A stretch of DNA of 48,417 nucleotides, from NCBI GenBank assembly GCA_902806175.1, contig CADCVQ010000147.1, positions 1 through 48,417 of the forward strand, in the 5' to 3' direction. Of the stretch, positions 6,462-32,375 are shown one piece after another; the stretch's first letter is position 1, and each line of letters starts with the position of its first letter. Position numbers and translations under genes: made by a program. Under the pieces are notes generated by a model. The model saw only the letters and a program-made list of their open reading frames with translations. It was not told the DNA's origin and did no database searches. The DNA is from an uncultured Solirubrobacteraceae bacterium. Lineage in GTDB: Bacteria > Actinomycetota > Thermoleophilia > Solirubrobacterales > Solirubrobacteraceae.

Positions 6462-6471
6462 GAGGAGATAC

Positions 6472-6996: not shown

Positions 6997-7001
6997 CCCG
7001 C

Positions 7002-11123: not shown

Positions 11124-12040
11124 GCCGCCTGAAGCGCAGTGAAGAGCTCGAAGAGGAGATGCGGCGGATCATCCCGAGCGTGGAGAAGCTCGGCCAGCTG
11201 CTGGGAGACGTCGACTACCTCGCCGACGAGGGTCTTGCGACGTCCGCCTACCTGGCGCTGCGCCTGCCGCAGCCGCTGCTGCTCGAGGGCGAGGCCGGCG
11301 TCGGCAAGACCGAGCTCGCCAAGGCCATCGCGGAGGTGCTCGAGACCCCGCTGATCCGCCTGCAGTGCTACGAGGGCATCGACGCGTCCGAGGCGCTGTA
11401 CGAGTGGAACTATCCGCGCCAGCTGCTGAGCATCCGGATCGCGGACTCCAAGGGCGAGGATCTCAACGAGGAGGGCCTGTTCGGGCCCGACTACCTCATC
11501 CGCCGGCCGCTGCTGCGCGCCCTGGAGCACAAGGGACCGCGTCCTGCCGTCCTGCTGATCGACGAGCTCGACCGCGCCGACGACGACTTCGAGGCCTTCC
11601 TGCTCGAGCTGCTCGCCGAGGCGACCGTGACGATCCCGGAGATCGGCACGATCACCGCGACGCATCCGCCGATCGTGATCCTGACGTCCAACCGCACGCG
11701 TGACCTGCACGACGCCGTCAAGCGCCGCTGCCTGTACCAGTGGATCGACTACCCGACCCCGCAGCGCGAGGTCGACATCGTCCGCCGGCGCGTGAAGGGG
11801 GCCTCGGCGACGCTCGCCGTCCAGGTCGCCGACGCCGTCTCGCGCATGCGCGAGTCCGACATCCAGAAGCCTCCGGGCATCGCCGAGGCGATCGACTGGG
11901 TGGCCGCGCTGGACCTGCTCGGCGTGGAGCACCTGGACGTCGCGACCGCCGATCGCACGCTCGGCTCGGTGCTGAAGTACAGCGAAGACCAGGAGGTCGT
12001 TCGCTCGGCCGGCCTGGATCAGCTCGTCGAGAAGCGGTGA
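11120..12040 (+). CDS. coxD: MoxR-family AAA+ ATPase CoxD
   Basis: 306 residues, with ATGA overlap to the previous gene. Walker A GEAGVGKT is at 57-64, Walker B LLIDELDRAD near 141-150, and a sensor-1 Asn in ILTSNRTRDLHDAVKRRCLY. This is the MoxR subfamily that works with VWA proteins as a metal-site chaperone. In studied carboxidotrophs CoxD is needed for sulfuration of the CoxL molybdenum centre. The paired VWA gene coxE follows after 34 bases. Confidence 0.95.
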   Translation: MSRLKRSEELEEEMRRIIPSVEKLGQLLGDVDYLADEGLATSAYLALRLPQPLLLEGEAGVGKTELAKAIAEVLETPLIRLQCYEGIDASEALYEWNYPRQLLSIRIADSKGEDLNEEGLFGPDYLIRRPLLRALEHKGPRPAVLLIDELDRADDDFEAFLLELLAEATVTIPEIGTITATHPPIVILTSNRTRDLHDAVKRRCLYQWIDYPTPQREVDIVRRRVKGASATLAVQVADAVSRMRESDIQKPPGIAEAIDWVAALDLLGVEHLDVATADRTLGSVLKYSEDQEVVRSAGLDQLVEKR

Positions 12041-12074
12041 CCGCAGTGGCACGGACCCGCGGGACGGACCGCTG

Positions 12075-13505
12075 ATGGTCGAGAAGCAGGAGCACGGTGC
12101 CGAGCAGGACAACGGCGCCGTCCCGAACTTCGCGGTCGTCGACTTCGACGTCGACCTGCCCGGGCTGGCGAGCGCCTTCAGCCAGCGCCTGCACGAGGCG
12201 GGCGTGCCGGTGACGCCGTCGCAGACCGAGCAGTACACGCGCGCGCTGAAGCTCACCAAGCCCGTCTCGCGGCGGCGGCTGTACTGCACGACGCGCGCGA
12301 TCTTCGTCACCGGCTTTCAGCAGGTGGCGGCGTTCGACCGCGTCTTCGCGCAGGTCTTCGGCTCTCGCAAGCGGTCGGTCAACCCCGACGACTACGACGT
12401 CGAGCTCGAGGAAGCGCCCGTCGACCAGGTCGACAGCGAGACGCCCGAGGACATGGACGACCAGAACGTCATGGAGCGCGAGGGCGGCCAGGAAGCCATG
12501 AACATGAACGCCGGCGAGGGCGACGACGAGGAGGACGAGGACGACACCGAGGAGGAGCAGCTCGTCCCGATGCAGGAGGCCAGCGAGGAAGAGGCGCTCA
12601 GCCACAAGAACTTCCAGGCGCTCAACCACGAGGAGCTGGCGCTGCTGTACCGGCTCATGGTTCGCCTGCAGCTCGCCACGCCCGACCGCACCACGCGTCG
12701 CAAGAAGCGCGGTCGCCGCGGCGAGCACATGGACATGCGCCGCACGCTGCGCAAGAGCCTGCACACCGGCGGTGACCCGATCGTGCTGTCGCGCAAGCGC
12801 CGGCGCGTGCATCCGCGCCGGCTCGTGCTGCTGTGCGACATCTCGGGCTCAATGGAGCCCTACGCGCGCGCCTACCTGCAGTTCCTGCACGCGGCCCGCG
12901 CGACCGGGCCCTACGCCGAGGCATTCGTCTTCGCGACCCGGCTGACGCGGCTGACGCGTCAGCTCGCCGGGCGCAACCCGCAGCGGGCGATCCGGCGCGC
13001 GACGGAGGCGGCGCCGGACTGGTCCAGCGGCACGCGGATCGGTGACGCGCTGAAGGAGTTCAACGACCGCTACGGGCGGCGCGGGATGGCGCGCGGGTCG
13101 GTCGTCGTGATCCTCTCCGACGGCTGGGAGCGCGGCGATCCGGCGCTCGTCGGGCGCGAGATGCAGCGCCTCTCACGGCTGGCCTACCGGATCGTGTGGG
13201 TCAACCCGCGCGTGGCGGCCAAGGGCTTCTCGCCGAAGGCGGGCGGCCTCGTCGCGGCGCTGCCGCACTGCGACGCGCTCGTCAGCGGTCACACGCTCAA
13301 GTCGCTCGAGGAGGTCGCAGACGCGATCGCCGCCGAGCGCGACTACGACCCGCTGCTCGCGAGCTGGCGGGTGCCGAGCATCGACGACGAGCCCGAGGAA
13401 GACAGCTGGGGCGTCGCCGGGACGACCGAGCGGCACGTCGCGATGCCCAGCGGATACGGCGCGTACAAGGGCAATACGTCGCCCGGTTCCAACTCGGGAC
13501 TATGA
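12075..13505 (+). CDS. coxE: VWA-domain protein CoxE
   Basis: 476 residues. The N-terminal part has the CoxE-type helical region, then an extremely acidic Asp/Glu stretch (about 115-180), a basic segment, and a C-terminal VWA domain with the MIDAS motif DISGS starting at D255 plus SSGTRIGDAL and LSDGWERGD. CoxE is the partner of CoxD and in studied systems is linked to copper insertion into the CuSMo site. The ATG at 12075 has only a weak ribosome-binding site (GGGACGGA). It is the last classical cox gene before a 153-base gap. Confidence 0.94.
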   Translation: MVEKQEHGAEQDNGAVPNFAVVDFDVDLPGLASAFSQRLHEAGVPVTPSQTEQYTRALKLTKPVSRRRLYCTTRAIFVTGFQQVAAFDRVFAQVFGSRKRSVNPDDYDVELEEAPVDQVDSETPEDMDDQNVMEREGGQEAMNMNAGEGDDEEDEDDTEEEQLVPMQEASEEEALSHKNFQALNHEELALLYRLMVRLQLATPDRTTRRKKRGRRGEHMDMRRTLRKSLHTGGDPIVLSRKRRRVHPRRLVLLCDISGSMEPYARAYLQFLHAARATGPYAEAFVFATRLTRLTRQLAGRNPQRAIRRATEAAPDWSSGTRIGDALKEFNDRYGRRGMARGSVVVILSDGWERGDPALVGREMQRLSRLAYRIVWVNPRVAAKGFSPKAGGLVAALPHCDALVSGHTLKSLEEVADAIAAERDYDPLLASWRVPSIDDEPEEDSWGVAGTTERHVAMPSGYGAYKGNTSPGSNSGL

Positions 13506-13658
13506 GCTTTCCCAGCACATCCGGAGGCGCCGACAGGACGGGCGCGGTGCCACCGGAACTGTCATACTGGCGCCCGCCTGAACCGCGACCATCGACGGTC
13601 GCACGATCCTTGGGAGGGACCGTGATCTGCCGAACAACACAAACGAGGGGAGCTGTTC

Positions 13659-14108
13659 ATGGCTAGCGTGTACCGCGCTATCTACCTGCGCGTTCATCCG
13701 ACCGGGAAGTGCACGCTCAGCCTGAGCTGCGACGGCGGCGGGCAGGATGCGCAGCTGGCCCAGGTGGTCGGCGACGAGCTCGGCATGCCCTCGGGTGACG
13801 TCAAGGTCGTCCCGCAGGATCTCGACCGCTTCGGCGGCGGACACGGGTACGTCACGCAGTCCAGCCCCGGTCTGCAGGACGCGACGCGCAAGACGTGCGC
13901 GAAGATCAAGGACAAGGCGCGCTACCTCGCCGGCGGCATGCTCGGCACGTCACCGCAGTCGCTGTCGTGGAACGGCGACAACTTCGGCGGCAAGCGCATC
14001 GAGGAGATCGCGCTGTACGCCCACGGCGGCGCGATCGAGCTTCCGCTCGGCCCCGACGGTCGCCAGCTCGAGGGTTCGCTGGACGCGCAGACGACCTTCC
14101 GCAACTGA
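13659..14108 (+). CDS. Stand-alone CoxL-domain-like mini-protein
   Basis: 149 residues with its own ribosome-binding site (GAGGGGAG). Residues 10-104 align with CoxL 507-604 of this same operon: LRVHPTGK against LRVHPSGK, SLS, AQVV against AQIV, DELG against EELG, D.D, KDKAR against RDKAR, and W104 against W604, with one two-residue gap. This is part of the cofactor-binding region of CoxL, but the QGQGHE and GTYGSRS cofactor loops are replaced by DGGGQDA and GGHGYVTQ, and the AYRCSFR loop lies outside it. It is therefore not a CO dehydrogenase. The frame is intact with normal codon use. Possible roles are scaffold, dimer partner or cofactor decoy in CoxL assembly; function unknown. Confidence 0.85.
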   Translation: MASVYRAIYLRVHPTGKCTLSLSCDGGGQDAQLAQVVGDELGMPSGDVKVVPQDLDRFGGGHGYVTQSSPGLQDATRKTCAKIKDKARYLAGGMLGTSPQSLSWNGDNFGGKRIEEIALYAHGGAIELPLGPDGRQLEGSLDAQTTFRN

Positions 14109-14136
14109 CGAACGCCAGCAATACCGCGCTGTAGAC

Positions 14137-14163
14137 CCACCGGCCTGCTCTGCAGGCCGGTGG
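14137..14163 (+). terminator. GC hairpin at the end of the cox operon
   Basis: A perfect 12-bp stem (14137-14148 with 14152-14163) closes a 3-base loop 28 bases after the mini-protein stop. No T-tract follows. It also lies just beyond the end of the small minus-strand gene, so it could act in both directions. Confidence 0.75.
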
Positions 14164-14177
14164 TCGTTGGAGGCGGG

Positions 14178-14312
14178 TCAGTCGCCGCGCTTCCAGGGAC
14201 GCCGGCGCGTGCGCAGGCTCGCCATGATCGCCACGTAGGTGGCCCCGAGCACGGGAACCGCCATCGCGATCGTCTCCTCGAGCGGAATCCCCGCGATGTG
14301 GGCGACGGTCAT
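14178..14312 (-). CDS. Small single-pass membrane protein
   Basis: 44 residues from the ATG at 14312: MTVAHIAGIPLEET, then one hydrophobic segment (about 16-32), then an Arg-rich tail RTRRRPWKRGD. The charge pattern predicts the basic C-terminus inside. The Shine-Dalgarno (GAGCGGG) is modest. It lies 54 bases after the YceI gene on the same strand, so the two may share a transcript. No family is recognised. Short length keeps the confidence moderate. Confidence 0.55.
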   Translation of the reverse strand: MTVAHIAGIPLEETIAMAVPVLGATYVAIMASLRTRRRPWKRGD

Positions 14313-14366
14313 GGGCACCCGCTCATCGTATCCGTTGGCAGCGTCGGCTCAGCCCTGGATCCAGGC

Positions 14367-14891
14367 TCAGGCGAGCTTGCCCTCGACCACGACGTTCACC
14401 TCGTCGTTGACCTTCAGTGCGCCGAACAGGGCCGAGTACGGCTTGATGCCCCAGTCGCTCTGCTTGAAGGCCGCGTTGCCCGTGACGGTGCCCCCGGTCT
14501 CGCTGAGGTCAAAGCTGATCGGCTTGGACTTGCCGCCCACCTCGAGGTCTCCACTGACCTTGAGGCCGTCGCCTGCCGTCTCGACGCTCGAAGACGTGAA
14601 GGTGATGTCCTTCTTCTTGAGCACGTCCTTGTCGATCGTCTTGTGGATGTCGTCGATGTCGTCGTCCTTGAGGGCCTGCATGCCACCCTTGCCCTCGCGC
14701 ACGCGCAGCGACGTCGAGTCCGCGCTGAGTGAAAGGCTTGAACTGTCACCAACCTCGAGCGTCGCCTCCCAGGACGTGACGTCGATGATGAGGTCGTGTC
14801 CTGCCTTGGCCGCAGCGCCGCTGCGTCCCGTCTCGACATGAAGAGACGCGTTGTCGGGTCCGAGCTTGTATGTCCCTGCCTGAATCGCCAT
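14367..14891 (-). CDS. YceI-family lipocalin-like protein
   Basis: 174 residues. The GTYKLGPDNASLHVETG start, the alternating beta-strand pattern, the ITFTSSSVE strand and the terminal SDWGIKPYSALFGALKVNDEVNVVVEGKL segment are typical of YceI proteins, which form an eight-stranded barrel that binds long isoprenoids. There is no signal peptide, so it appears cytoplasmic. It is divergent from coxG across about 195 bases. A link to quinone handling next to CoxG is possible but only suggested by position and family. Confidence 0.88.
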   Translation of the reverse strand: MAIQAGTYKLGPDNASLHVETGRSGAAAKAGHDLIIDVTSWEATLEVGDSSSLSLSADSTSLRVREGKGGMQALKDDDIDDIHKTIDKDVLKKKDITFTSSSVETAGDGLKVSGDLEVGGKSKPISFDLSETGGTVTGNAAFKQSDWGIKPYSALFGALKVNDEVNVVVEGKLA

Positions 14892-15085
14892 CGGCGGATT
14901 CTATGAAGACACGCTCATGTTCGGCGGCTCCCTACGTGCCCCACGCCGAGCGGGCGGACCGGCTGCGGACCTGAAATACTCACCCGCTGCTCAGCGCCAT
15001 GCTGCCCCGGCGGCGGCGGCACCGCGCGCGAAGGAACGTTTGGGACGAAGCAGCCGTCATACCTGGACAAAGGAGGAGGCGCAGC

Positions 15086-15511
15086 ATGCCGACGTTGAAC
15101 AACACGTTCCCCGTAACCAACCCGGATCACGCCTGGAGCATCATCAGCGACCTCAACAAGCTTGTGCCGTGTGTTCCCGGTGGCAAGGTCGTATCGGCGG
15201 ACAGCGCCGAGTCTGTCAAGGCCGAGATCGACGTGAAGATGGGGTCGATGGGCATGAAGTTCACGGGGCCGGTCACGATCGAGTCGGCCGACGCCGGCAG
15301 CAAGACGGTAAAGATCAAGGCCAACACCAAAGAGGCCGGCGGACAGAGCAACGCCTCCGGCGACGTCACGATCGCTGTCGGCGGCGGCGAGGGCAAGATC
15401 GACGCGACCGCAAACGTCAGCGGCAAGGCCGCATCGATGGGCGAGGGCACCATCGTTGCCGTGCTCGAGCAGCTCATGAAGTCCTTCGCGGCGAACGTCG
15501 GGAAGGCGTAG
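15086..15511 (+). CDS. coxG: CoxG-type SRPBCC protein
   Basis: 141 residues from the ATG at 15086 with a strong AAAGGAGGAGG site. It shows the CoxG/SRPBCC pattern: NTFPVTNP..AWSIISDLNKLVPCVPGG, then VKAEIDVKMGSMGMKFTG, and a terminal helix VLEQLMKSFAANVGKA. CoxG proteins partner CO dehydrogenase in electron delivery to membrane quinone and usually carry a C-terminal extension for membrane binding. That tail is absent here; the protein ends with the SRPBCC helix. A hairpin follows the stop. Confidence 0.9.
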   Translation: MPTLNNTFPVTNPDHAWSIISDLNKLVPCVPGGKVVSADSAESVKAEIDVKMGSMGMKFTGPVTIESADAGSKTVKIKANTKEAGGQSNASGDVTIAVGGGEGKIDATANVSGKAASMGEGTIVAVLEQLMKSFAANVGKA

Positions 15512-15513
15512 CC

Positions 15514-15561
15514 AGACCGCCGGCCGGGTGCGTTCGAAGCGCTCCCGGCCCGACGCGGTCT
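15514..15561 (+). terminator. Hairpin after coxG
   Basis: A two-part stem pairs AGACCGC (15514-15520) with GCGGTCT (15555-15561) and GGCCGGG (15522-15528) with CCCGGCC (15544-15550), starting 2 bases after the coxG stop. There is no T-tract. It probably ends the coxG transcript. Confidence 0.6.
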
Positions 15562-15708
15562 CTCATCCGGACGCAGCTGCGCCATATCCGCGGGCGGTAC
15601 GCGGTCGCGCTCGCGCGCGCGAGTAAGGTGTCCGCTGTGCTTTGCACACGCCCCGCGCGGTCCTGCGACCGCCGCTGGGCGCCGAGTGACAGTGGAAGGA
15701 GCGAGGCG

Positions 15709-16026
15709 ATGAAGGACGTAATCGAGGACGTCGATCGCTGGGTCGGGGAGGGGGCGCAGGTGGCGATCGCCACCATCACCGGCACCCGCCGTTCGGCTCC
15801 GCGTCCGCCGGGCGCGAAGATGGCGATCAACGACCGGGGCGATGTCTCGGGGATGGTCTCGGGAGGCTGCGTCGAGGGCGCGGTGATCGAGGTCGCAGAC
15901 ACGATCCTCAACAACGGCGGCGAGCCGCAGCTGCTGACGTTCGGCATCGCCGACGAGGAGGCGTGGGACGTCGGGCTGCCCTGCGGCGGCGAGATCGACG
16001 TCTGGGTGGAGCGCTTCGAGCCGTGA
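15709..16026 (+). CDS. coxI: XdhC/CoxI N-terminal-domain protein
   Basis: 105 residues from the ATG at 15709 (GGAAGGAGCGAGG upstream). It contains only the XdhC_CoxI domain: VAIATITGTRRSAPRPPGAKMAIN, GMVSGGCVEGAV and GLPCGGEIDVWVE, with the two conserved Cys-containing loops. This domain binds and hands over molybdenum cofactor. The Rossmann half is encoded by the next gene, overlapping by GTGA, so the usual XdhC architecture is split over two proteins. The symbol follows domain type, not proven orthology. Confidence 0.9.
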   Translation: MKDVIEDVDRWVGEGAQVAIATITGTRRSAPRPPGAKMAINDRGDVSGMVSGGCVEGAVIEVADTILNNGGEPQLLTFGIADEEAWDVGLPCGGEIDVWVERFEP

Positions 16027-16787
16027 GCATCCACGAGCAGTTCGCGCAGATCGCGCGCGAGGACGGACGCGCAGCGCTCGTCACGGTCGTGCAGGGCCCG
16101 CACAAGGGCGAGAAGCTGCTCGTGCGCATTGACGGCACCTCCGATGGCACGCTCGGCGATCCCGAGCTGGATGCTCAGGGCAAGGCCGACGCCGAGGACC
16201 TCATGTGGGCAGAGCGCTCCGAGGTGCGCGGCGATCTGTTCATCGATGTCATCAATCCCGACCCGCGGATCGTCATCTTCGGCGCCGTCGAGTACGCGCA
16301 GCACCTGTCGGCGCTCGCGCGCGTCTGCGGCTGGCGCCCCTATGTCGTCGATCCGCGCGCGCGCTTTGCGACCCCGGAGCGCTTTCCCGATGCCCTCGGC
16401 GTCGTCGCGGCGTGGCCCGAGGAGGCCTTCGAGCAGCTGGGTGCACCGGACAAGGGCACGTACATCGTGATCCTCACGCACGATCCCAAGCTCGACGATG
16501 CGACGCTGCTGATCGCGTTGCGCTCGGATGTCGCCTACATCGGCGCGATGGGCTCCAAACGCGCGCAGAAAGACCGTCGCGAGCGACTGCTCGCCGCGGG
16601 CGTGCCGGAGGAGGACCAGGGGCGCATCAGTGCGCCGGTCGGACTGGATCTGGGCGCGACGAACGCGCGTGAGACCGCGCTGTCGATCATGGCCGAACTC
16701 GCGGCGGTGCGTCATGGACGCGCCGGTGGGCGGCTGTCGCAGTCCAAGGGCGGCGGGCGAATCCACGCGGCCGCCGAAGCCAAGTAG
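16023..16787 (+). CDS. XdhC Rossmann-domain protein (CoxF-like)
   Basis: 254 residues from the GTG at 16023, overlapping the CoxI-type gene. After an N-terminal region of about 75 residues comes the XdhC C-terminal Rossmann domain: RIVIFGAVEYAQHLSALARVCGWRPYVVDPRARFATPERFP, then YIVILTHDPKLDD, then VAYIGAMGSKRAQKDRRERLL and ISAPVGLDLGA, a classic XdhC ending. It forms a functional unit with the preceding domain in molybdenum hydroxylase maturation. With the fused XdhC-YHS protein this gives two XdhC systems for one CO dehydrogenase. Confidence 0.92.
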   Translation: MSIHEQFAQIAREDGRAALVTVVQGPHKGEKLLVRIDGTSDGTLGDPELDAQGKADAEDLMWAERSEVRGDLFIDVINPDPRIVIFGAVEYAQHLSALARVCGWRPYVVDPRARFATPERFPDALGVVAAWPEEAFEQLGAPDKGTYIVILTHDPKLDDATLLIALRSDVAYIGAMGSKRAQKDRRERLLAAGVPEEDQGRISAPVGLDLGATNARETALSIMAELAAVRHGRAGGRLSQSKGGGRIHAAAEAK

Positions 16788-16862: not shown

Positions 16863-17363
16863 CTACTTGTTGAAGACCTTGTCGAGCAGGCCCGAGCTGG
16901 TCAGCAGGTTGCCGCCCTGCTCGAGCAGCCCCGTCGCCTGGTCGAGCATCGCCTTGCGACCCGCCTCGTCGGCGGTCACGTACGCCACGCCAGCGGCGAC
17001 GACGCCGAGCCTGGCGAGTGCCATCATCGGGTGGCGACGCCCGACGAGGCCGAGCAGCTGCGCGTTCGTCGCCGCGAGCGAGTACATCGCCGGCGCGAGC
17101 TGTGCGTTGCGCTTTGAGTTTCTCATTCGCATCCCTTTCAACGCTGGTGTCCGACGCCCCAGGCCGAGCGCGCGGAGCGGCATGCCGGCGGCCGCGCCGA
17201 TCCCGCCGGCACCTGCGACGAACCCGATCGCGGCGCCCGCCGACGCGAGCACATCCTCCCGCACCGTGACCATACCTGGCTTCTGCGCGCCCGTCGCGAC
17301 CACGAGCGCGTCCGCATCGGGCGCGCCGGCGCTCGTGTCATTCGTGATCGGCTGGCGCGTCAT
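16863..17363 (-). CDS. Hypothetical protein with Gly/Ala-rich hydrophobic segments
   Basis: 166 residues, no family recognised. A polar N-terminus of about 40 residues is followed by a Gly/Ala-rich hydrophobic stretch (about 41-66), a basic linker (RRTPALKGMRMRNSKRNAQL), a second hydrophobic region (about 90-130), and an amphipathic tail ending LLDKVFNK. It may be membrane-associated with two passes. It sits 51 bases downstream of another minus-strand hypothetical that also ends hydrophobic, and the two could form an operon between the CO dehydrogenase and hydrogenase clusters. Confidence 0.65.
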   Translation of the reverse strand: MTRQPITNDTSAGAPDADALVVATGAQKPGMVTVREDVLASAGAAIGFVAGAGGIGAAAGMPLRALGLGRRTPALKGMRMRNSKRNAQLAPAMYSLAATNAQLLGLVGRRHPMMALARLGVVAAGVAYVTADEAGRKAMLDQATGLLEQGGNLLTSSGLLDKVFNK

Positions 17364-17414
17364 CGCGCCAACCTGATCATGTTCTCGCGCGCGCGTGTAT
17401 GGGTGCGATCGCTG

Positions 17415-17720
17415 CTAGCGGACAATCCACCTCACCACCCGGGCACCGACGAAGCCGGCGGCGACGGCGACGGGCACCTTGAGCGCCGGGTCGAGGTCGT
17501 CGTACTTGGACTTCAGCTCGGCGAGCATCTCGCCGACGTCCAGCTGGCTCGGGTCGATCGAGGTGACCTGGTCGAGGATCTCGAAGGGGTCCAACGACCC
17601 CAGCTGTCCGACGAGGGCGCCGGCCTTCTCTCCGATCTCGCTGACGGGTACGCCAAGCGCCCCAAGCTTGTCCAGCGCCTGCTCAATGGGATCCTGCGTC
17701 ACCGATCGGCCTCTTGACAC
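17415..17720 (-). CDS. Hypothetical C-terminally anchored small protein
   Basis: 101 residues from the GTG at 17720, ten bases after GGGAGG; a second GTG at 17702 is possible. The body is acidic and helical with repeated DP.E/DPSQ turns (SLDPFEILDQVTSIDPSQLDVGEML), and the last 20 residues (VPVAVAAGFVGARVVRWIVR) form a tail-anchor-like helix. No family recognised. It is divergent from the hydrogenase operon and shares the upstream region that carries the TGGTACCAC repeats. Confidence 0.65.
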   Translation of the reverse strand: MSRGRSVTQDPIEQALDKLGALGVPVSEIGEKAGALVGQLGSLDPFEILDQVTSIDPSQLDVGEMLAELKSKYDDLDPALKVPVAVAAGFVGARVVRWIVR

Positions 17721-17908: not shown

Positions 17909-18187
17909 ATGTGCCTGGCAATTCCCGGACAGATCCTCGAGGTGGTAGACGAGAGCAATCGCCTCGCGAAGGTCGACGTGGCGGGGGTGCAGCGCAACGT
18001 GAACATCGGACTTCTCGATGACGATGGTGATGGCGTGGGACCGGGCGACTGGGTGCTCATCCACGTGGGCTTCGCGATGTCCAAGGTCGATGAGGCGGAG
18101 GCTCTCGAAACGCGGCGTATGCTTGAGAGCATGGGCGAAGACTACGAACAAGAGCTCGAAGAGCTGAAGGCGAGCATCATCGAATGA
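17909..18187 (+). CDS. hypC: Hydrogenase maturation chaperone HypC
   Basis: 92 residues. It starts MCLAIPGQI, with the Cys2 that carries the Fe(CN)2CO unit with HypD and then binds the large subunit precursor; H52 sits in the conserved LIHVGFA block. Standard length for HypC. A GGGGGG stretch lies 11 bases upstream. It is the first gene of a long plus-strand hydrogenase operon and overlaps the next gene by ATGA. Confidence 0.95.
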   Translation: MCLAIPGQILEVVDESNRLAKVDVAGVQRNVNIGLLDDDGDGVGPGDWVLIHVGFAMSKVDEAEALETRRMLESMGEDYEQELEELKASIIE

Positions 18188-18447
18188 AACGTCTCAGCAC
18201 CGACGCGGCCGCCGCGCCGGCACCGACCTGCGACGCCAGCACCAGCTGCATCACGTGCGGCGACGTCGCCATCCCCCTGACGGTCCTCCGCCTCGACGAG
18301 GAGAGGGGACTTGCGCTCTGCGCGGATGACGACGGGAAGTCCGAGACGGTCGAAACCGACCTGGTCGCTCCGGTGGCGCCGGGGGATCGACTCCTCGTCC
18401 ACGCCGGCACCGCCATCGCACGACTCACTGAGGAGGTCCCTGCATGA
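18184..18447 (+). CDS. HypC/HupF-related accessory protein lacking the Cys2 start
   Basis: 87 residues, ATGA overlap on both sides. The core (CITCGDVAIPLTVLRLDEERGLALCADDDG, then VAPVAPGDRLLVHAGTAIARL) follows the HypC/HupF beta-barrel pattern, including the GD.LLVHAG..I block. Instead of beginning with Met-Cys it has an N-terminal extension and a cluster of cysteines (C16, C22, C25). It is a known companion of HypC in actinobacterial hydrogenase loci. The cysteine cluster may bind metal or substitute for Cys2; that is inference. Confidence 0.85.
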   Translation: MKRLSTDAAAAPAPTCDASTSCITCGDVAIPLTVLRLDEERGLALCADDDGKSETVETDLVAPVAPGDRLLVHAGTAIARLTEEVPA

Positions 18448-20690: not shown

Positions 20691-21755
20691 ATGGCCTCGA
20701 TCGAATTCGCACCGAGGCAGCATGAGACGGAGCAGATCACGGCTCACGTGATCTGGATGACGTCTGGGCTGAGCTGCGATGGCGACTCGGTTGCCATGAC
20801 GTCGGCTGTCAACCCGAGCCTCGAGGACATCATCACGGGCGCGATCCCGGGCATGCCGAAGGTGGTGGCACATACCCCGGTCCTCGCGTACGAGAACGGC
20901 GCCGAGTTCATGCAGGCCTGGTACGACGCCGAGGCCGGCAAGCTCGACCCGTTCGTCCTCATCGTGGAGGGCTCGATCCCGAACGAGAAGATCAACGGCG
21001 AGGGTCACTGGGCGGGCATGGGTGTCAACCCGAGCGACGGCCAGCCGATCACGACCAACGAGTGGATCGATCGCCTCGCGCCGAAGTCGGCCGCAACGGT
21101 TGCCCTTGGCACCTGCGCGACCTACGGCGGCATCCCGGCGATGAAGAACAACCCGACGGGCGCCATGGGGCTCTGCGACTACCTCGGATGGGGTTGGAAG
21201 TCGGCCGCCGGACTGCCCGTCATCAACATCCCCGGCTGCCCGGCGCAGCCGGACAACACGACCGAGTCGCTGACGGTGCTCGTGATGGCCCTGGCCGGCA
21301 TCGCGCCGGTCCCGGAGCTCGACGATCAGCACCGCCTGACGATGCATTTCGGGCGCACCGTGCACGAGGGCTGCAACCGCGCTGCCTTCTACGAGCACGG
21401 CAACTTCGCGACGGAGTACGGCTCCGACCACCGATGCTTGGTCAAGCTCGGGTGCAAGGGTCCGGTCGTGAAGTGCAACGTCCCGATCCGCGGTTGGCAG
21501 AGCGGCGTCGGCGGGTGCCCGAACGTGGGTGGCATCTGCATGGCTTGCACGATGCCGGGCTTCCCCGACAAGTACATGCCGTTCATGGATGAGGACTCCA
21601 AGGCGAAGCTGTCGTCGAACACGGCGAAGTTCACCTACGGGCCGCTGCTGCGCTACTTCCGCAACCAGTCGATCGAGCGCAACTACGACAAGGAACCGGA
21701 CTGGCGCCACCCGCGCGAAGAGATCACCTCGGGCTACAGCCCGCACTGGACGTAA
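20691..21755 (+). CDS. hhyS: Group 1h [NiFe]-hydrogenase small subunit
   Basis: 354 residues, ATG preceded by AAAGGGAGGAG. The iron-sulfur subunit of the high-affinity actinobacterial hydrogenase that oxidises atmospheric H2. The proximal-cluster loop reads LSCDGDS (C29, D32) where standard enzymes have CxxC, matching the known three-Cys/one-Asp coordination of this class. Further ligands lie in GTCATYGG, NIPGCPAQPDN, and the C-terminal HRCLVKLGCKGPVVKCNVPIR and GGCPNVGGICMACTMPGFPDK blocks. There is no Tat signal peptide, again as in group 1h. The large subunit follows after 17 bases. Confidence 0.96.
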   Translation: MASIEFAPRQHETEQITAHVIWMTSGLSCDGDSVAMTSAVNPSLEDIITGAIPGMPKVVAHTPVLAYENGAEFMQAWYDAEAGKLDPFVLIVEGSIPNEKINGEGHWAGMGVNPSDGQPITTNEWIDRLAPKSAATVALGTCATYGGIPAMKNNPTGAMGLCDYLGWGWKSAAGLPVINIPGCPAQPDNTTESLTVLVMALAGIAPVPELDDQHRLTMHFGRTVHEGCNRAAFYEHGNFATEYGSDHRCLVKLGCKGPVVKCNVPIRGWQSGVGGCPNVGGICMACTMPGFPDKYMPFMDEDSKAKLSSNTAKFTYGPLLRYFRNQSIERNYDKEPDWRHPREEITSGYSPHWT

Positions 21756-21772
21756 GGGAGAGACACAGACAC

Positions 21773-23554
21773 ATGGCCACACTGCAAACACCGACTACGA
21801 CCTCCGGCGTCGTAGTCAAGGAGATGGCGTGGGATCCGATCACCCGTATCGTCGGGTCGCTCGGCATCCACACGGAGATCGACTTCACGAACCGCAAGGT
21901 CAACAAGTGCTACAGCACGTCGATGATCTTCCGTGGATTCGACATCTTCATGAAGGGCATCGATCCCCGCGATACGCACTTCATCACGAGTCGTATCTGC
22001 GGGATCTGCGGAGACAACCACTGTACGGTCTCCTGCCTGAACCAGAACATGGCCTACGGGGTCAAGCCGCCGAAGCTCGGCGACTATGCCTTCAACCTGG
22101 CCGAGAGCGCGGACTACATGTTCGACCACGCGATCTTCAACGATTGCATGGCCAACGTGGACTTCTGCGAGCAGATGGTCAAGGAGACCAACCCGTCCGT
22201 GCTCGCGAAGGCCGAGAACACCTCGGCCCCGCATTCGGACATCCACGGCTACAAGACGATCGCGGACATCATGCGCGCGCTGAACCCGTTCACGGGTTCG
22301 TTCTACCTGGAGACGCTCGGCGTCGCCCGGTACACGCGCGAGATGTACTGCCTCTTCGGCGGCCGGCACACGCATCCCTCGACGATCATGCCGGGCGGCT
22401 GCAGTGCGGACATCACCCATCAGACGATGACCGACTACTACGTGCGGCTCATGCGCTACATGGACTACATCAAGCGCACGGTGCCGATGCACGACGACCT
22501 GTATGACTTCTTCTACGAGGCCATGCCGGGGTACGAGCGGGTCGGCTACCGCGACACGGACATCATCTGCTGGGGCGCGTTCGACGATCCCGAGTACGTG
22601 ACGTACGAGTACAAGACCATGACCGACTGGGGCCGCAAGCGTTTCATCACGCCTGGCCTCGTCTTCAAGGGCGAGCTGATCACGACCGACCTGGTCGAGA
22701 TCAACCTCGCGATGCGGATCCTCCTGGGCCATTCGTACTTCGACGACTGGGACCAGGAAGAGACGTTCGTCACGCACGATCCGCTCGGCAACCCCGTGGA
22801 CAAGCGCCACCCGTGGAACAAGCAGACCCTGCCGAAGCCGCAGAAGCGCGACTTCAACGACAAGTACTCGTGGGTCGCGGCGCCGCGCATGTACGACAAG
22901 CGCAACGACATCTACGTTGCGACCGACACCGGTGGCGGTCCGTTCGCGCGCAACTGGTGCACGGCGAAGGCTGGGCTCGTCGACATCGGATACATGAAGG
23001 CGACGGGGCACAGCCTGCAGATGGTGCTGCCCAAGTCGCTGAACATGCCCGAGATGGAGCTCGAGTGGAAGATCCCGCCGTGGTCAAACGCGATCGAGCG
23101 TGACCGCGCGCGTACGTACCATCAGGCCGTTGCGGCGCTGATCGGTCTGTACAACCTGGAGAAGGCCCTCGTCGAGGTCCGCGCCGGGCGCGTCAAGTCC
23201 TGGAACAGCTTCACCGTTCCGGAGGAGGCCGTCTCCGTGGGGTTCCATGAGGCCGCTCGCGGCGTCATCAGCCACCACATGGTCATTCGCGACGGCAAGG
23301 TCGCGAACTACCAGCCCTATCCCCCGACCCCGTGGAACGGGAACCCGCGCGACAAGTTCGGGACCCCGGGACCCTACGAGGACGCTGTCCAGAACACCCC
23401 GATCTTCGAGGAGAACGGGCCGGACAACTTCAAGGGGATCGACATCATGCGCGCTGTGCGCTCCTTCGACCCGTGCCTGCCGTGCGGTGTGCACATGTAC
23501 ACCGGCAAGGGCCGCGTCAAGAAGGTCCAGCACACGCCGACGGGGATGTGCTGA
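21773..23554 (+). CDS. hhyL: Group 1h [NiFe]-hydrogenase large subunit
   Basis: 593 residues. It carries the NiFe(CN)2CO active site. The L1 motif RICGICGDNHC has C76 and C79; the L2 motif DPCLPCGVH has C568 and C571. After H574 there is a 19-residue tail ending in Cys593, which the maturation protease encoded at 26.6 kb should remove once nickel is inserted. All four Ni-binding cysteines are intact. GGGAGAG lies before the ATG. Confidence 0.97.
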   Translation: MATLQTPTTTSGVVVKEMAWDPITRIVGSLGIHTEIDFTNRKVNKCYSTSMIFRGFDIFMKGIDPRDTHFITSRICGICGDNHCTVSCLNQNMAYGVKPPKLGDYAFNLAESADYMFDHAIFNDCMANVDFCEQMVKETNPSVLAKAENTSAPHSDIHGYKTIADIMRALNPFTGSFYLETLGVARYTREMYCLFGGRHTHPSTIMPGGCSADITHQTMTDYYVRLMRYMDYIKRTVPMHDDLYDFFYEAMPGYERVGYRDTDIICWGAFDDPEYVTYEYKTMTDWGRKRFITPGLVFKGELITTDLVEINLAMRILLGHSYFDDWDQEETFVTHDPLGNPVDKRHPWNKQTLPKPQKRDFNDKYSWVAAPRMYDKRNDIYVATDTGGGPFARNWCTAKAGLVDIGYMKATGHSLQMVLPKSLNMPEMELEWKIPPWSNAIERDRARTYHQAVAALIGLYNLEKALVEVRAGRVKSWNSFTVPEEAVSVGFHEAARGVISHHMVIRDGKVANYQPYPPTPWNGNPRDKFGTPGPYEDAVQNTPIFEENGPDNFKGIDIMRAVRSFDPCLPCGVHMYTGKGRVKKVQHTPTGMC

Positions 23555-23561
23555 GGGCCTA

Positions 23562-24176
23562 GTGGCTACTGAGCACCAAGCTCCGGAAGAGCTGGTCGAG
23601 CGGGTCCAGGAACTCCTGGGCTCGCTCGACGAGATCGCCGATCCTGTCGCGCAGAACCGCGTACAGGAGCTCATCGGCGCAGTTCTCGAGTTGTACGGAG
23701 CTGGTCTGGAGCGGATCCTCGGCGTCCTCGCGGACGCCGGGGAGCCGGCGCTCCCGATCCGCGACGCACTGCTCGACGACGGCGTCGTCGCAAGCCTGCT
23801 GCTGATCCACGGCCTGTTTCCGGTGCCGCTGGAGGAGCGCGTCATGCAGGGCCTGGACAACGTCCGCCCGTTCCTCGCGGGTCACGGCGGCAACGTCGAG
23901 CTCGTCAGCGTCGAGAACGGGATCGCCCGGCTGCGGCTGCAGGGCAGCTGCGACGGCTGTCCGGCCTCGGCGTCGACGCTGGAGAACGCGTTGCGTGAGG
24001 CGATCGACGAGGTCGCTCCATATCTGCTCGGGCTCGAAGTCGAGGGCGTCGTCGGGCTGGACGAGGAGCAGGCCACCCCGGCGGGGCTGTCGCTGCCGAT
24101 GGTCCAGGTTGGAGGGACGAGTTTGCCGGTGGCAGATGCGCCCTACACCGAGTGTCCGTCGGGCGTGGGGAAGTGA
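23562..24176 (+). CDS. NifU C-terminal-domain protein
   Basis: 204 residues from the GTG at 23562. The central region (about 87-160: VMQGLDNVRPFLAGHGGNVELVSVENGIARLRLQGSCDGCPASASTLENALREAI) is a NifU-like Fe-S scaffold domain with the CxxC pair. It is flanked by an N-terminal helical extension of about 85 residues and a C-terminal tail of about 40 residues. Such a gene regularly follows hhyL, where it may deliver or repair Fe-S clusters of the small subunit or take part in electron transfer. The exact role is unproven. GTGA overlap with the next gene. Confidence 0.9.
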   Translation: MATEHQAPEELVERVQELLGSLDEIADPVAQNRVQELIGAVLELYGAGLERILGVLADAGEPALPIRDALLDDGVVASLLLIHGLFPVPLEERVMQGLDNVRPFLAGHGGNVELVSVENGIARLRLQGSCDGCPASASTLENALREAIDEVAPYLLGLEVEGVVGLDEEQATPAGLSLPMVQVGGTSLPVADAPYTECPSGVGK

Positions 24177-24796
24177 CTGCCGGCGGACGCCTGCCTTCCA
24201 CGCTTGTGACAGGCCTGGGCCGCCTTGCGCGGCCCGCGCCTGTTCAGACCGAGAAGTGCGAGATCTGTGGAAGGCCGCTGTCAGACGACCACCGGCACCT
24301 GCTCGAGCTCAACGAGCGACGCATCCTGTGTTCGTGCGAGCCCTGCCTGGCGATGAAGTCGGGACTGGAGAGCTACTGCCCCGTCGGAACGCGGACGCTG
24401 TGGCTCGACGACTTCGTGTTCCCGGACGAGCTGTGGGCGGCCTTCCAGCTGCCCGTGGGTCTGGCCTTCTTCATGCGCTCGACGGGAACGAACCGCGTCG
24501 TCGCGCTGTACCCGAGCCCGGCCGGCGCGACAGAGTGCGAGTTGCATCTCGAGAGCTGGGACAAGCTGCTCGAGCTCAACCCGATCCTGCGTGATCTCGA
24601 GGCCGATGCCGAGGCGCTCGTCGTCAACCGCATGGTCGGCGCGCACCAGCACGCGATCGTGCCGATCGACGAGTGCTACCGCCTCGTCGGCCTGATCAAG
24701 TCGACGTGGGAGGGCATCTCGGGCGGCAACGCGATCGCCGATGCCGTGCCCAAGTTCTTCGAGTACGTACGCCACAAGGCCGGAGTTGTCGGATGA
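24173..24796 (+). CDS. DUF5947 family protein
   Basis: 207 residues from the GTG at 24173. The N-terminal third has KCEICGRPL, a downstream DDHRHL and ILCSCEPCLAM: two CxxC pairs plus His that probably bind zinc or another metal. The rest is mixed alpha/beta with no known catalytic motif. DUF5947 genes occur in group 1h hydrogenase operons of actinobacteria; their function is undefined. Translationally coupled on both sides, which argues for stoichiometric production with the hydrogenase. Confidence 0.85.
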   Translation: MTAGGRLPSTLVTGLGRLARPAPVQTEKCEICGRPLSDDHRHLLELNERRILCSCEPCLAMKSGLESYCPVGTRTLWLDDFVFPDELWAAFQLPVGLAFFMRSTGTNRVVALYPSPAGATECELHLESWDKLLELNPILRDLEADAEALVVNRMVGAHQHAIVPIDECYRLVGLIKSTWEGISGGNAIADAVPKFFEYVRHKAGVVG

Positions 24797-25500
24797 GTTC
24801 CCAATCAGACGCTGCGAGGCCGCCGAGTGAGGAACGTGACTACAGGCCGGAGGTCACCTTCGAGGTCCTCGGCGTCGCGCACGAGCCCTTTGCCGCTCAG
24901 CCCACGCTGCGCTTCGAGCTCAGCGTGTTCGAGCCGACGGACCGGCCGATCTACGCGATCTCCCTGACCGCGCAGATCAACTTCGATCCCGCGCGGCGCG
25001 AGTACGACGCAACGACGCGCGAGGATCTCTACGAGCTGTTTGGCACGCCCGATCGCTGGCCCTCGACGACGCGCAGCTTCCTGTGGACTCACGCGAGCAC
25101 GATCGTGCACTCGTTCGCCGGCGCCATCACGTTCGGATTGGAGGTCCCGTGCACGGCGGATCTCGAGATGGTTGCCTCGCGATATGTCTCGGCGCTGCCC
25201 GACGGAGACGTGCCGTTGACCTTCCACTTCACCGGTCGGGTGCTGTACCAGGGGCCGCAGCGCCAGGTTCAGGTGCTGCACCTGCCGTGGCACACCACGG
25301 CACAGTACCGGATGCCCGTCACCGCCTGGAAGGACATGATGAAGCACCATCATGGTGAGTCGGGCTTCGTGATCCTGCACAACGACACGCTCGAAGAGTT
25401 CAAGAGGTACAAGCGAGCCCATGGCCTGCACAGCTTCGACGCGGTCGCCCTCGACCTGCTCAAGCACGTGCCCGTAGACGACGAAGGAGAGAACGGATGA
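24793..25500 (+). CDS. DUF6084 family hydrogenase-associated protein
   Basis: 235 residues with ATGA overlaps at both ends. Predominantly beta, starting VTFEVLGVAHEPFAAQPTLRFELSVFEPTDRPIYAISLTAQI, which fits the DUF6084 family. No signal peptide, membrane helix or obvious metal ligands, apart from a KHHHGES segment near residue 190. The family is confined largely to hydrogenase loci and its function is unknown. Confidence 0.82.
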   Translation: MSSQSDAARPPSEERDYRPEVTFEVLGVAHEPFAAQPTLRFELSVFEPTDRPIYAISLTAQINFDPARREYDATTREDLYELFGTPDRWPSTTRSFLWTHASTIVHSFAGAITFGLEVPCTADLEMVASRYVSALPDGDVPLTFHFTGRVLYQGPQRQVQVLHLPWHTTAQYRMPVTAWKDMMKHHHGESGFVILHNDTLEEFKRYKRAHGLHSFDAVALDLLKHVPVDDEGENG

Positions 25501-26639
25501 CCAGCGGCATCGAACCGATCAGCCCCGCGACCCCGTCCGACGTCGGCATCACGTCGTCGAAGTCGCACCTCGAGCGGCTCGTCGACTCGCTGCTGTTCGA
25601 GGGCTACGCGCTCTACCCGTACACTCCGGGCGCGACGAAGAACGCGACGCCGACGCCGTTCGGGATAGTCTATCCGGCCGACTACGCAAAGCATCAGTCA
25701 CACGCGTTCGACCGCATGCAGATGCAGGGCGTCGTGACCTCCGCCGATGCGGTCGTCACCGGCGAGGTGCGCTTTCTGCAGCCGTCCGGCGAGCAGCACC
25801 AAGCCGTCGAGCGGCGCGTGCAGCTCGGCGCGGCGCCCTCGACGGTGAAGTTCGAGTTCGGCGATCTGGAGGGCAAGGCGGAGCTGATCGTCGAGCGGCT
25901 GCCGGATGGCCACGGGCGCGTGACGCTGCAGGTCGAGAACATCACGCCGCTGACCGACGAGGAGCAGACCGCCGACCGCAAGGAGGCGCTGCTGAAGAGC
26001 ATGCTCTCCACGCACCTGCTCGCGAGGGTCATGGGCGCAGAGAAGTTCATCTCGCCGCTGGAGCGCGGGGATGACGGCGTCGCCGGCTGCTGCCAGGTGA
26101 ACACCTGGCCCGTGCTCGCGACACCACAGGACGACGCCCTGCTGGCGCCGACGATCCTGCTGCCAGAGCATCCGGAGATCGCCCCTGAGAGCGTCAACGA
26201 CTTCTTCGACGGCACCGAGATCGAGGAGGCGCTCGTGCTGCATATTCAGGCGCTGTCGGACCAGGAGCGCGAGGAGATCGCAGCTCAGGACCCGAAGGTG
26301 CGCGAGATGCTGGCGCGAGCCGACGCGACGACGCCCCAGCAGCTGATGGATCTCCATGGCCGCGTACGGATCGAGGATCCGCCCGGCGAGCGCGATGTCA
26401 CCTTCAACGGCGTCAGGTACCGCCGCGGGGACAAGGTCATCTTGCACCCGCCGCAGAACGCAGACGTCTACGACAAGATGCTCGACGGCCGCTCTGCGAC
26501 GATCCACAGGCTGTTTCTGCGCGTCGACGATCGCCTCCACATCGGTGTCACGGTCGACGACGATCCGATGCAGGAGATTCTGGGGGAGAGCGGGCGCTTT
26601 CTGTTCTTCTTCGCCGAAGAGGTCGAGGTGCTGACGTGA
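25497..26639 (+). CDS. Conserved hydrogenase-operon protein of unknown function
   Basis: 380 residues, not recognised beyond its locus. The first half (LERLVDSLLFEGYALYPYTPGATKNATPTPFGIVYP) resembles the start of a conserved family that accompanies group 1h hydrogenases; the middle has helical acidic segments and a CC pair (VAGCCQVNTWP). The C-terminal part (GVRYRRGDKVILHPPQNADVYDKMLDGRSATI) looks like a small beta-barrel of SH3 or KOW type. Coupled by ATGA and GTGA overlaps to both neighbours. Possibly a scaffold for hydrogenase assembly or membrane linkage; this is inference. Confidence 0.8.
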   Translation: MTSGIEPISPATPSDVGITSSKSHLERLVDSLLFEGYALYPYTPGATKNATPTPFGIVYPADYAKHQSHAFDRMQMQGVVTSADAVVTGEVRFLQPSGEQHQAVERRVQLGAAPSTVKFEFGDLEGKAELIVERLPDGHGRVTLQVENITPLTDEEQTADRKEALLKSMLSTHLLARVMGAEKFISPLERGDDGVAGCCQVNTWPVLATPQDDALLAPTILLPEHPEIAPESVNDFFDGTEIEEALVLHIQALSDQEREEIAAQDPKVREMLARADATTPQQLMDLHGRVRIEDPPGERDVTFNGVRYRRGDKVILHPPQNADVYDKMLDGRSATIHRLFLRVDDRLHIGVTVDDDPMQEILGESGRFLFFFAEEVEVLT

Positions 26640-27265
26640 GCGAGGACGAGCAGCGAGACAACGAGACGCTCGAGCCGCCGCGCGACAACTGGCGCCCGCC
26701 GGCGCCGGATGCGCCCCTGGAGCTGAGTGAACCGGACGTGTCCGGGCGTCCCAAGCAGGTGCTGATCGCCGGCATCGGCAACGCCTGGCAGCGCGACGAC
26801 GGCTTTGGCAGCGAGGTCGCGCGGCGCCTCGAGGGCCGCGAGCTGCCCGAGGGCATCGCGGTGATCGACTTCGGTACCGGCGGCCTGGATCTCGCCTACC
26901 AGGTGATGTACGGCTACGACGGCCTGCTGATGATCGACGTCAGCCGCCAGGGCGGATCGCCCGGAACGCTGTACGTGATGGAGGTCGACGAGGACGAGGT
27001 CCCCGGCGGCTCGGTCGAGGACGGCGAGGTCCTCAACCCGCACGCGATGGATCCCGAGACGGTCCTGCGCTTCATCAAGATCACCGGCGGCTGGCCGGGC
27101 AAGGTCGTCATCGTCGCGTGCGAGCCCGCAACGATCGAGGAGATGGGCGTCGGCCTGACGCCGGCCGTCGAGGAGGCCGTCGATCGCGCGGTCGACCTCG
27201 TCCTGGAGACCGCCAAGGAGCTGCTCACCGACGAGGCGTACGCGTCGGTCGACGACGCGAAGTAG
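26636..27265 (+). CDS. HyaD-type hydrogenase maturation protease
   Basis: 209 residues with a GTG start overlapping the previous stop. After an N-terminal extension of about 40 residues the peptidase domain begins VLIAGIGNAWQRDDGFGSEVARRLE, the family signature that includes the DDG.G loop, and continues with LLMIDVSR and VIVACEP. Enzymes of this family remove the C-terminal tail of the large subunit after nickel insertion, here expected after H574 of HhyL. Only one such protease is visible, so it is the likely partner. Confidence 0.92.
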   Translation: MSEDEQRDNETLEPPRDNWRPPAPDAPLELSEPDVSGRPKQVLIAGIGNAWQRDDGFGSEVARRLEGRELPEGIAVIDFGTGGLDLAYQVMYGYDGLLMIDVSRQGGSPGTLYVMEVDEDEVPGGSVEDGEVLNPHAMDPETVLRFIKITGGWPGKVVIVACEPATIEEMGVGLTPAVEEAVDRAVDLVLETAKELLTDEAYASVDDAK

Positions 27266-31869: not shown

Positions 31870-31892
31870 GGCGGCCGTATCCTCTGCTCGGG

Positions 31893-32375
31893 ATGGACAG
31901 CTTCGCGCTGAGTGAGCGCTGGAACGGCTGGTCGCGCCTGGACACGATGGTCGCGGCCGCGCGCGCCGCGGTCACCACGGGACCGCTGGATCCGCTCGTC
32001 TGCGAGGTGACGATCGAGGGCGACGAGCAGACCGTCACCCTCGACGGCCTCGACGCGCTCGAAGCGCTGCTCGGCGCCGGCGAGGATCCGCTGTCGCTGG
32101 ACATCTACGTCGCGCACGCCGTCGAGGACGAAGCCAGCCTGATGCTCGTCTACAACGGGCGCTGGCTGCAGATCAACGGGTCGGGCAGCGACTGGACGCG
32201 CGCGCGACAGGCCTACGACGCTGCCTATGTCGAGCTCGCGCTCGTGTACGGCATCACGACGTTCAAGCTGCCCGAGCTGCCGGCGGACACGGTCGCGCAG
32301 ACGCGCCGGCGGATCGGCGTCAAGGACCAGGATCCGGGCCGCGAGCCCGGTCCGCCCGGCGCAGCGCGGCGCTAA
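31893..32375 (+). CDS. Hypothetical protein at the end of the hydrogenase operon
   Basis: 160 residues from the ATG at 31893, 23 bases after hypF. It starts MDSFALSERWNGWSRLDTMVAAARAAV and has a mixed alpha/beta composition, a Trp-rich strand (LMLVYNGRWLQINGSGSDWTRARQAYD) and a disordered Pro/Arg tail. No family recognised. The closing end overlaps a convergent minus-strand gene by four bases. Co-transcription with hypF is likely from spacing. Confidence 0.7.
   Translation: MDSFALSERWNGWSRLDTMVAAARAAVTTGPLDPLVCEVTIEGDEQTVTLDGLDALEALLGAGEDPLSLDIYVAHAVEDEASLMLVYNGRWLQINGSGSDWTRARQAYDAAYVELALVYGITTFKLPELPADTVAQTRRRIGVKDQDPGREPGPPGAARR

Follow-up and report, generated by a model that had tools for sequence, protein, structure and literature searches.

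The window analysed here is a 48,417-nucleotide stretch of DNA, contig CADCVQ010000147.1 (assembly GCA_902806175.1), from an uncultured Solirubrobacteraceae bacterium. The system in question is a run of seven genes on its forward strand that begins with the small and large subunit genes of a group 1h [NiFe] hydrogenase (hhyS and hhyL), continues with four genes whose contribution to the enzyme is our subject, and closes with a maturation protease gene. In soils, group 1h hydrogenases consume H2 from the atmosphere and so contribute to its main sink. The genes and features of the run, all on the + strand, are the following (P380 is our name for the 380-residue protein).

20691 to 21755, +: hhyS, group 1h [NiFe] hydrogenase small subunit, 354 residues (Pfam Oxidored_q6 and NiFe_hyd_SSU_C)
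21773 to 23554, +: hhyL, group 1h large subunit, 593 residues (match to HofG, PDB 5aa5)
23562 to 24176, +: hhyE, short form, NifU-domain protein of 204 residues, GTG start (Pfam NifU, 5.7e-18)
23949 to 23960, +: CxxC (CDGC) of the HhyE NifU domain, protein residues 130 to 133
24173 to 24796, +: DUF5947 gene, 207 residues, GTG start at 24173 (Pfam PF19372, 1.7e-59)
24257 to 24346, +: DUF5947 site CxxC-x7-HxH-x10-CxCxxC (C29, C32, H40, H42, C53, C55, and C58)
24793 to 25500, +: DUF6084 gene, 235 residues, predicted beta-sandwich with three C-terminal helices (Pfam PF19562, 4.1e-68)
25497 to 26639, +: P380 gene, 380 residues
25566 to 26360, +: P380 N-terminal part, residues 24 to 288, predicted relative of the DrmA N-terminal region (fold and profile)
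26394 to 26636, +: P380 C-terminal SH3-like barrel, residues 300 to 380 (AlphaFold2 [AF2] model)
26636 to 27265, +: HycI/HupD-type hydrogenase maturation protease, last gene of the run (TIGR00072, 1.2e-35)

Searched against PDB sequences, the window HhyL matched HofG of Cupriavidus necator (5aa5) at 3.1e-277, and the next match lay at 5.6e-46. HofKG (5aa5) is the sole group 1h structure that this search located, and no convincing chain match was obtained in PDB for DUF5947, DUF6084, or P380. The window HhyL is 65 to 66% identical to four other HhyL/HofG sequences and HhyS is 56 to 59% identical to four other HhyS/HofK sequences; the nickel motifs of HhyL, an N-terminal and a C-terminal CxxC, are present as C76-C79 and C568-C571. 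A CxxD motif in the small subunit, with Asp replacing one proximal-cluster Cys, is a hallmark of group 1h, and its C29 is kept in 71/71 and its D32 in 70/71 HhyS sequences (this and all later column counts use only complete open reading frames [ORFs] that cover at least 75% of the seed profile, and they include many mycobacteria, the sequences not being independent). Judged by these sequence features, the window hydrogenase is assigned to group 1h.

The original prediction described the four genes between hhyL and the protease gene as coupled by 4-base overlaps, and this is correct: the four junctions from hhyE through the DUF5947, DUF6084, and P380 genes to the protease read GTGA, ATGA, ATGA, and GTGA, each an overlap of 4 bases, and the hhyL stop (23554) is separated from hhyE by a 7-base gap with no overlap. 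The overlaps had also been taken to suggest near-equal expression, for which they are uninformative. Overlaps of the same length occur elsewhere in the window, at hypC-hypC2-hypD (18184 and 18444) and in a gene pair at 33852; because they are this common, they show an operon but are a poor guide to whether its genes are equally expressed.

Searching species genomes with an alignment of P380 gave 560 confirmed relatives, and we compared the loci of the best 80, a choice that under-samples distant relatives. The order hhyS-hhyL-hhyE-DUF5947-DUF6084-P380-protease was identical in 59/80 loci, which makes the locus more than a chance arrangement; 11 further loci fit this order as far as they are covered, most being cut by a contig end (six start at hhyL and five hold the last two or three genes), and the remaining 10 have rearranged, fused, or missing genes. 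A 4-base overlap links the DUF6084 gene to the P380 gene in 66/79 pairs. Two loci were left out, one (L009) with hhyL, hhyE, and the DUF5947 gene absent between fragments and one (L112) with HhyE and DUF6084 in a single frame around a low-complexity stretch, which may be a misassembly. Cassette loci span Actinobacteria, Chloroflexi, Acidobacteria, Verrucomicrobia, Proteobacteria, Eremiobacterota, and Bacteroidota, and the closest relatives of the window P380 (L006 to L008) are 81 to 89% identical to it. Following relatives of P380 and DUF6084 on plasmids, we reached C. necator pHG1, a mycobacterial plasmid, Methylocystis, and Kitasatospora, and each carries the seven-gene set (NifU protein or its short form). 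The four genes are therefore the standard companion set of the group 1h enzyme and not specific to the window.

Two known systems carry the same run. In C. necator H16, the pHG1 genes hofKG-PHG066-067-068-069-070 of the actinobacterial-type hydrogenase correspond one for one, and in order, to the seven of the window, although the C. necator HhyE is without any CxxC and its P380 has 476 residues, whereas the window HhyE has a CxxC and its P380 is short. The mycobacterial hhySLE operon likewise comprises HhyS, HhyL, the NifU-family HhyE, DUF5947, DUF6084, P380, and the protease, but its HhyE is long, with two C-terminal CxxC motifs, in contrast to the short form of the window. The same four ORFs are recorded as being of unknown function in C. 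necator (PHG066 to PHG069; PMC4377017) and in methanotrophs (PMC12319191), and a text search of the literature for DUF6084, DUF5947, and their Pfam numbers returned a single paper, on aurodox biosynthesis.

Linkage to the enzyme was assessed in 396 genomes of the window's phylum. The HhyL profile matched in 60 of them, with group 1h proteins scoring above 1000 bits and another type about 420 to 620 bits at full length; 41 genomes were counted as group 1h (36 above 1000 bits and 5 partial matches judged by eye), and the other 19 hold the other type or fragments. P380 was present in 39/396 genomes (35/41 with group 1h versus 4/355 others) and DUF6084 in 37/396 (33/41 versus 4/355). Among the six group 1h genomes without P380, five have a contig end inside the operon and one holds only a relic fragment of hhyL; in the four P380 genomes without hhyL, contigs begin or end near the operon start. 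One of the 19 genomes with only other HhyL-profile matches (G216) has the cassette, on a contig that starts or ends near the operon start. In these 396 genomes, P380 and DUF6084 accompany hydrogenases of group 1h only. The window's own genome also encodes a tandem pair of further [NiFe] large subunits, each preceded by a small subunit (C164, 9887 to 11557 and 13821 to 15539; L129), with a NifU-domain gene and proteases nearby and no DUF5947, DUF6084, or P380 nearby; these belong to another hydrogenase type.

In Nannocystis exedens, we observed a minimal operon, hhyS-hhyL-P380-protease (L029, about 6000 to 10418), and searches of the 12.1-Mb genome gave no DUF5947, no DUF6084, and no HhyE beyond a generic Nfu-domain match. 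P380 is the cassette member tied tightest to the enzyme. With three of the four missing from this genome, the proteins might be thought passengers or regulators that merely travel with the operon, but we consider this very improbable, given that order and coupling are kept across the groups listed above, that the DUF5947 site described below is invariant, and that hhyE is reported as essential for Hhy activity (PMC6883350). The view of the original prediction that the four proteins belong functionally with HhySL holds up well, since they form one cassette with group 1h only and HhyE is needed in Mycobacterium smegmatis according to the same report.

The NifU-domain gene at 23562 to 24176 is identified by its sequence as hhyE, and its position matches that of the NifU-family genes of C. 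necator and Mycobacterium intracellulare. The predicted protein consists of an N-terminal helical adapter region (residues 1 to 95) and a NifU domain (residues 96 to 151) with a single CxxC (130 to 133); the two C-terminal CxxC motifs of the full-length form are absent, and truncated forms of HhyE are described as a known subset (PMC6883350). That source also describes HucE as a NifU-domain relative of HhyE, and the C-terminal Rieske motif of HucE is absent from the window protein. The NifU CxxC is kept in 55/74 complete HhyE sequences and lost in 19, including those of C. necator, Methylocystis, and Kitasatospora. Retention differs between long HhyE of at least 260 residues (44/45) and short HhyE (11/29; Fisher P = 7e-9, uncorrected for shared ancestry). 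Of 19 columns conserved at 90% or more, 16 fall in residues 14 to 98, the N-terminal helical part. Loss of the CxxC in 19/74 sequences, together with this N-terminal conservation, argues that an iron-sulfur (Fe-S) wire through HhyE is no general requirement; the Fe-S ligands appear dispensable, and the likelier common function of HhyE would be binding via its N terminus. Deletion of hhyE in M. smegmatis is reported to lower H2 oxidation as does loss of hhyL, with complementation, and the Hhy band disappears even with the artificial acceptor nitroblue tetrazolium (NBT) (PMC6883350). An enzyme that fails to stain with NBT in the absence of HhyE is easier to explain by failed assembly than by loss of a downstream wire.

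DUF5947 (PF19372, 200.9 bits against a cut-off of 25) was originally noted for two CxxC pairs. The Cys pairs are there, but the full site is larger, CxxC-x7-HxH-x10-CxCxxC, with five Cys and two His. Each of C29, C32, H40, H42, C53, C55, and C58 is invariant (78/78), and in a wider set the pattern is found in 104/106 sequences, the exceptions being one with a longer spacer that retains all ligands and one truncated at its N terminus. DUF5947 is the sole cassette member with an invariant metal-type site, and the pattern would fit either zinc or iron. In one metagenome assembly (L019), HhyE and DUF5947 are fused in one open frame, a hint that the two proteins may be in contact.

The invariance of these seven ligands is also what recommends the main rival reading, in which DUF5947 would be an electron carrier: its redox centre, a rubredoxin-like iron or a mixed Cys/His cluster, would take electrons from the distal cluster of HhyS and deliver them to quinone or another carrier, while P380, DUF6084, and HhyE would serve as its docking frame. 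A CxxC...CxCxxC arrangement with HxH is, however, equally typical of structural zinc, and the Nannocystis genome is without DUF5947 yet keeps hhySL and P380. Published work speaks on both sides: PHG067, the DUF5947 homologue by gene order, has been proposed as the electron acceptor in C. necator, HhyE is reported to co-localise with HhySL, and the M. smegmatis Hhy operon is described as having no cytochrome b gene, but dye reduction, too, is reported as gone without HhyE (PMC6883350). We found no membrane segment in any of the window's four proteins (the top 19-residue Kyte-Doolittle mean is 1.64), and among relatives a mean of at least 1.8 was reached by 4/83 P380 and 1/80 DUF6084 sequences. 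A membrane link through a transmembrane helix is ruled out for the window proteins by that maximum. The idea that the four proteins form an electron exit or membrane link is weakened by this result, by the loss of Fe-S ligands from HhyE, and by the missing NBT band, and we regard electron exit through DUF5947 as unlikely, if still to be taken seriously.

DUF6084 (PF19562, 229.5 bits against a cut-off of 25) gave an AF2 model with a predicted local distance difference test score (pLDDT) of 91, a beta-sandwich with C-terminal helices. Its nearest folds are IrmA (Z 10.1 over 102 residues, root mean square deviation [rmsd] 3.0) and plant LEA14 (Z 9.4 over 137 residues, rmsd 3.7), with many other sandwich folds scoring just below them; as modelled, DUF6084 is an immunoglobulin/LEA-like sandwich. 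P380 matched no Pfam or NCBIfam family, and its AF2 model (pLDDT 82.5, predicted template modelling score 0.70) has two parts. Residues 34 to 221 align with residues 148 to 423 of DrmA, the helicase of the DISARM anti-phage system, at Z 9.0 (170 residues, rmsd 3.9, 13% identity), and the next rows for that part score 5.6. The window P380 itself lies below detection by the PADLOC DrmA profile at E 1, and the profile matches 30/64 P380 relatives, the best being a Bacteroidota protein (L043, residues 42 to 320 to profile positions 59 to 337, 4e-14), with a second Bacteroidota protein (L021) at 6.2e-11. When 30 relatives were scanned singly, 26 matched DrmA at E 10 within profile positions 59 to 339, many of them weakly, and 4 did not match. 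From the profile matches of its relatives and its modelled fold, we conclude that the N-terminal domain of P380 is probably related to the chassis domain of DrmA, whose N-terminal half has been termed a structural chassis (PMC9142583).

P380 differs from DrmA in having no helicase family match and in residing in hydrogenase operons. No true DrmA was found in 246 genomes of the window's phylum, where matches were confined to the helicase part, nor in 188 genomes of the Nannocystis phylum or 339 genomes of the phylum of L064; DISARM profiles gave no convincing match for the window HhyE, DUF5947, or DUF6084; a profile search (A5) of PDB sequences did not recover DrmA; and a literature text search for hydrogenase together with DrmA returned nothing. 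A tblastn search of plasmids with the L043 protein gave 12 records, and the four loci inspected (L002 to L005) are hydrogenase loci. The two Bacteroidota loci, L021 and L043, whose P380 proteins are nearest DrmA, have hhyE 3' of the protease gene and P380 split in two genes.

The barrel-like domain that had been proposed at the C terminus of P380 is real in the AF2 model: residues 300 to 380 form an SH3-like barrel for which PetP (Z 7.4), NusG (7.3), and a BAH domain (7.3) are tied. The barrel is encoded as a separate gene in 14/115 P380 loci, which confirms the two-domain make-up of the protein. None of the three has support at the sequence level; in particular, profile searches gave no PetP match that would point to kinship beyond the common fold. 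The CC pair also singled out in P380 (residues 198 and 199) is no motif; the first Cys occurs in 76/83 relatives and the second in 4/83, so a redox role was ruled out and the pair is put down to chance.

Models that are all-beta or mixed and carry no cofactor motifs, together with the tight retention of P380, could also suit a purely structural role, in which P380 and DUF6084 would be neither redox-active nor assembly factors and would build HhySL up to a large particle, peripheral to the membrane, from which quinone is fed. There is a precedent in HucM of the group 2a enzyme Huc, which is reported to oligomerise Huc and to reach the membrane; Huc is also reported to stay active after removal of HucM (PMC10017518), whereas Hhy activity is gone without HhyE (PMC6883350). 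Neither model shows amphipathic membrane-reaching helices of the HucM type (no sequence test against HucM was made), and the known group 1h structure is of HofKG alone. We give such a particle only a slim chance.

Mean identity between loci was 0.37 to 0.43 for the four proteins, 0.44 for the protease, and 0.69 to 0.73 for the catalytic subunits. Place in the operon, loss of dye activity without HhyE, absence of membrane segments, an optional Fe-S site, and protease-like divergence lead us to favour, at somewhat better than an even chance, the reading that the four genes specify a dedicated cytoplasmic module for assembling the group 1h hydrogenase. The module would serve HhySL as the unrelated HupGHIJK/HoxOQRT proteins, which act in small-subunit maturation of group 1d enzymes, serve theirs, with HhyS the likely client; those genes also lie between structural and hyp genes, and their expected role is alike. 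Group 1h HhyS is not known to have a Tat (twin-arginine translocation) export step to guard. At E 1, none of the window's four proteins has a Pfam match to the HupGHIJK/HoxOQRT families, rubredoxin included. A comparison with HupGHIJK has been made for Nostoc, where a NifU-like gene between hupSL and the hyp genes was proposed to have a role in small-subunit maturation (PMC3126725).

Which clients are bound, in what order the parts act, and what each contributes is what we infer, as follows. HhyE would use the conserved helices of its N-terminal region to bind the unfinished small subunit and, in forms with an intact Fe-S domain, would also deliver clusters. DUF5947 would supply the metal or redox function and might, like the rubredoxin-like HoxR, protect or tune cofactors in air. 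DUF6084 (a beta-sandwich) and P380 (a DrmA-type chassis with an SH3-like barrel) would be the scaffold on which precursor subunits are kept until the large subunit is locked by the HupD-type protease, whose gene comes next. A more specific version is that group 1h has its own assembly machine, unrelated to HupGHIJK, centred on P380 and including the Cys/His protein DUF5947, in which a DrmA chassis has been reused as a precursor holder and the HhyE Fe-S site is optional and discarded by many lineages; this we put forward tentatively, at a little less than an even chance.

Several observations weigh against the assembly module. On native gels, HhyL, HhyS, and HhyE are reported to co-localise, as would be expected of a stable subunit; electron transfer is the role that the authors prefer for HhyE, with assembly left open, and hhyE sits in the structural and not the maturation operon (PMC6883350). 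The acceptor role proposed there for PHG067 points the same way. Methylacidiphilum strains are reported to be without hhyE (PMC6688271), and one of these strains, SolV, is reported to oxidise subatmospheric H2 (PMC7174314). Catenulispora and three Streptomyces-like genomes lack DUF6084; the three hold P380, a NifU-type gene, and DUF5947, with DUF6084 nowhere in the genome. Since Nannocystis has hhySL with P380 alone, three of the four are dispensable somewhere, if that enzyme works. Distance correlations (38 loci after thinning 65) do not help: the accessory proteins track HhyS a little more closely than HhyL, yet the protease does the same. We draw no conclusion from this bias, and the correlations show shared inheritance, not contact. 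An assembly module alone leaves both the co-migration of HhyE with HhySL and the Nannocystis case unexplained.

New here are the probable kinship of P380 with DrmA and its two-domain make-up, the contrast between a dispensable site in HhyE and an invariant one in DUF5947, and the minimal operon of Nannocystis. These findings bear on the assembly of group 1h hydrogenases in oxygen and on the route by which electrons leave them, and the expectation is that the HhyE Fe-S ligands can be mutated in some hosts, that those of DUF5947 cannot, and that P380 is the least spareable member. A hydrogenase helper linked to an anti-phage helicase domain would be a structural lead for both.

Other features were observed in and around these loci. 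On the M. intracellulare plasmid (L003, 14944 to 25266), a run of complex I (nuo) genes lies directly 3' of the group 1h operon and is a possible electron partner. In the window, a second HypC-family gene (18184 to 18447, 87 residues) with an N-terminal Cys cluster has 4-base overlaps with the preceding hypC and the following hypD. A 161-residue ORF 3' of hypF (31890 to 32375) has no convincing Pfam or NCBIfam match, and small ORFs of 166 and 101 residues on the minus strand upstream of hypC (16863 to 17720) have no convincing family match. Upstream of the hydrogenase operon (7002 to 16787), the window encodes a CoxL-like molybdenum enzyme subunit, a MobA-like transferase, an AAA ATPase, CoxE, and two XdhC/CoxI proteins, likely a CO dehydrogenase-type cluster beside the high-affinity hydrogenase.

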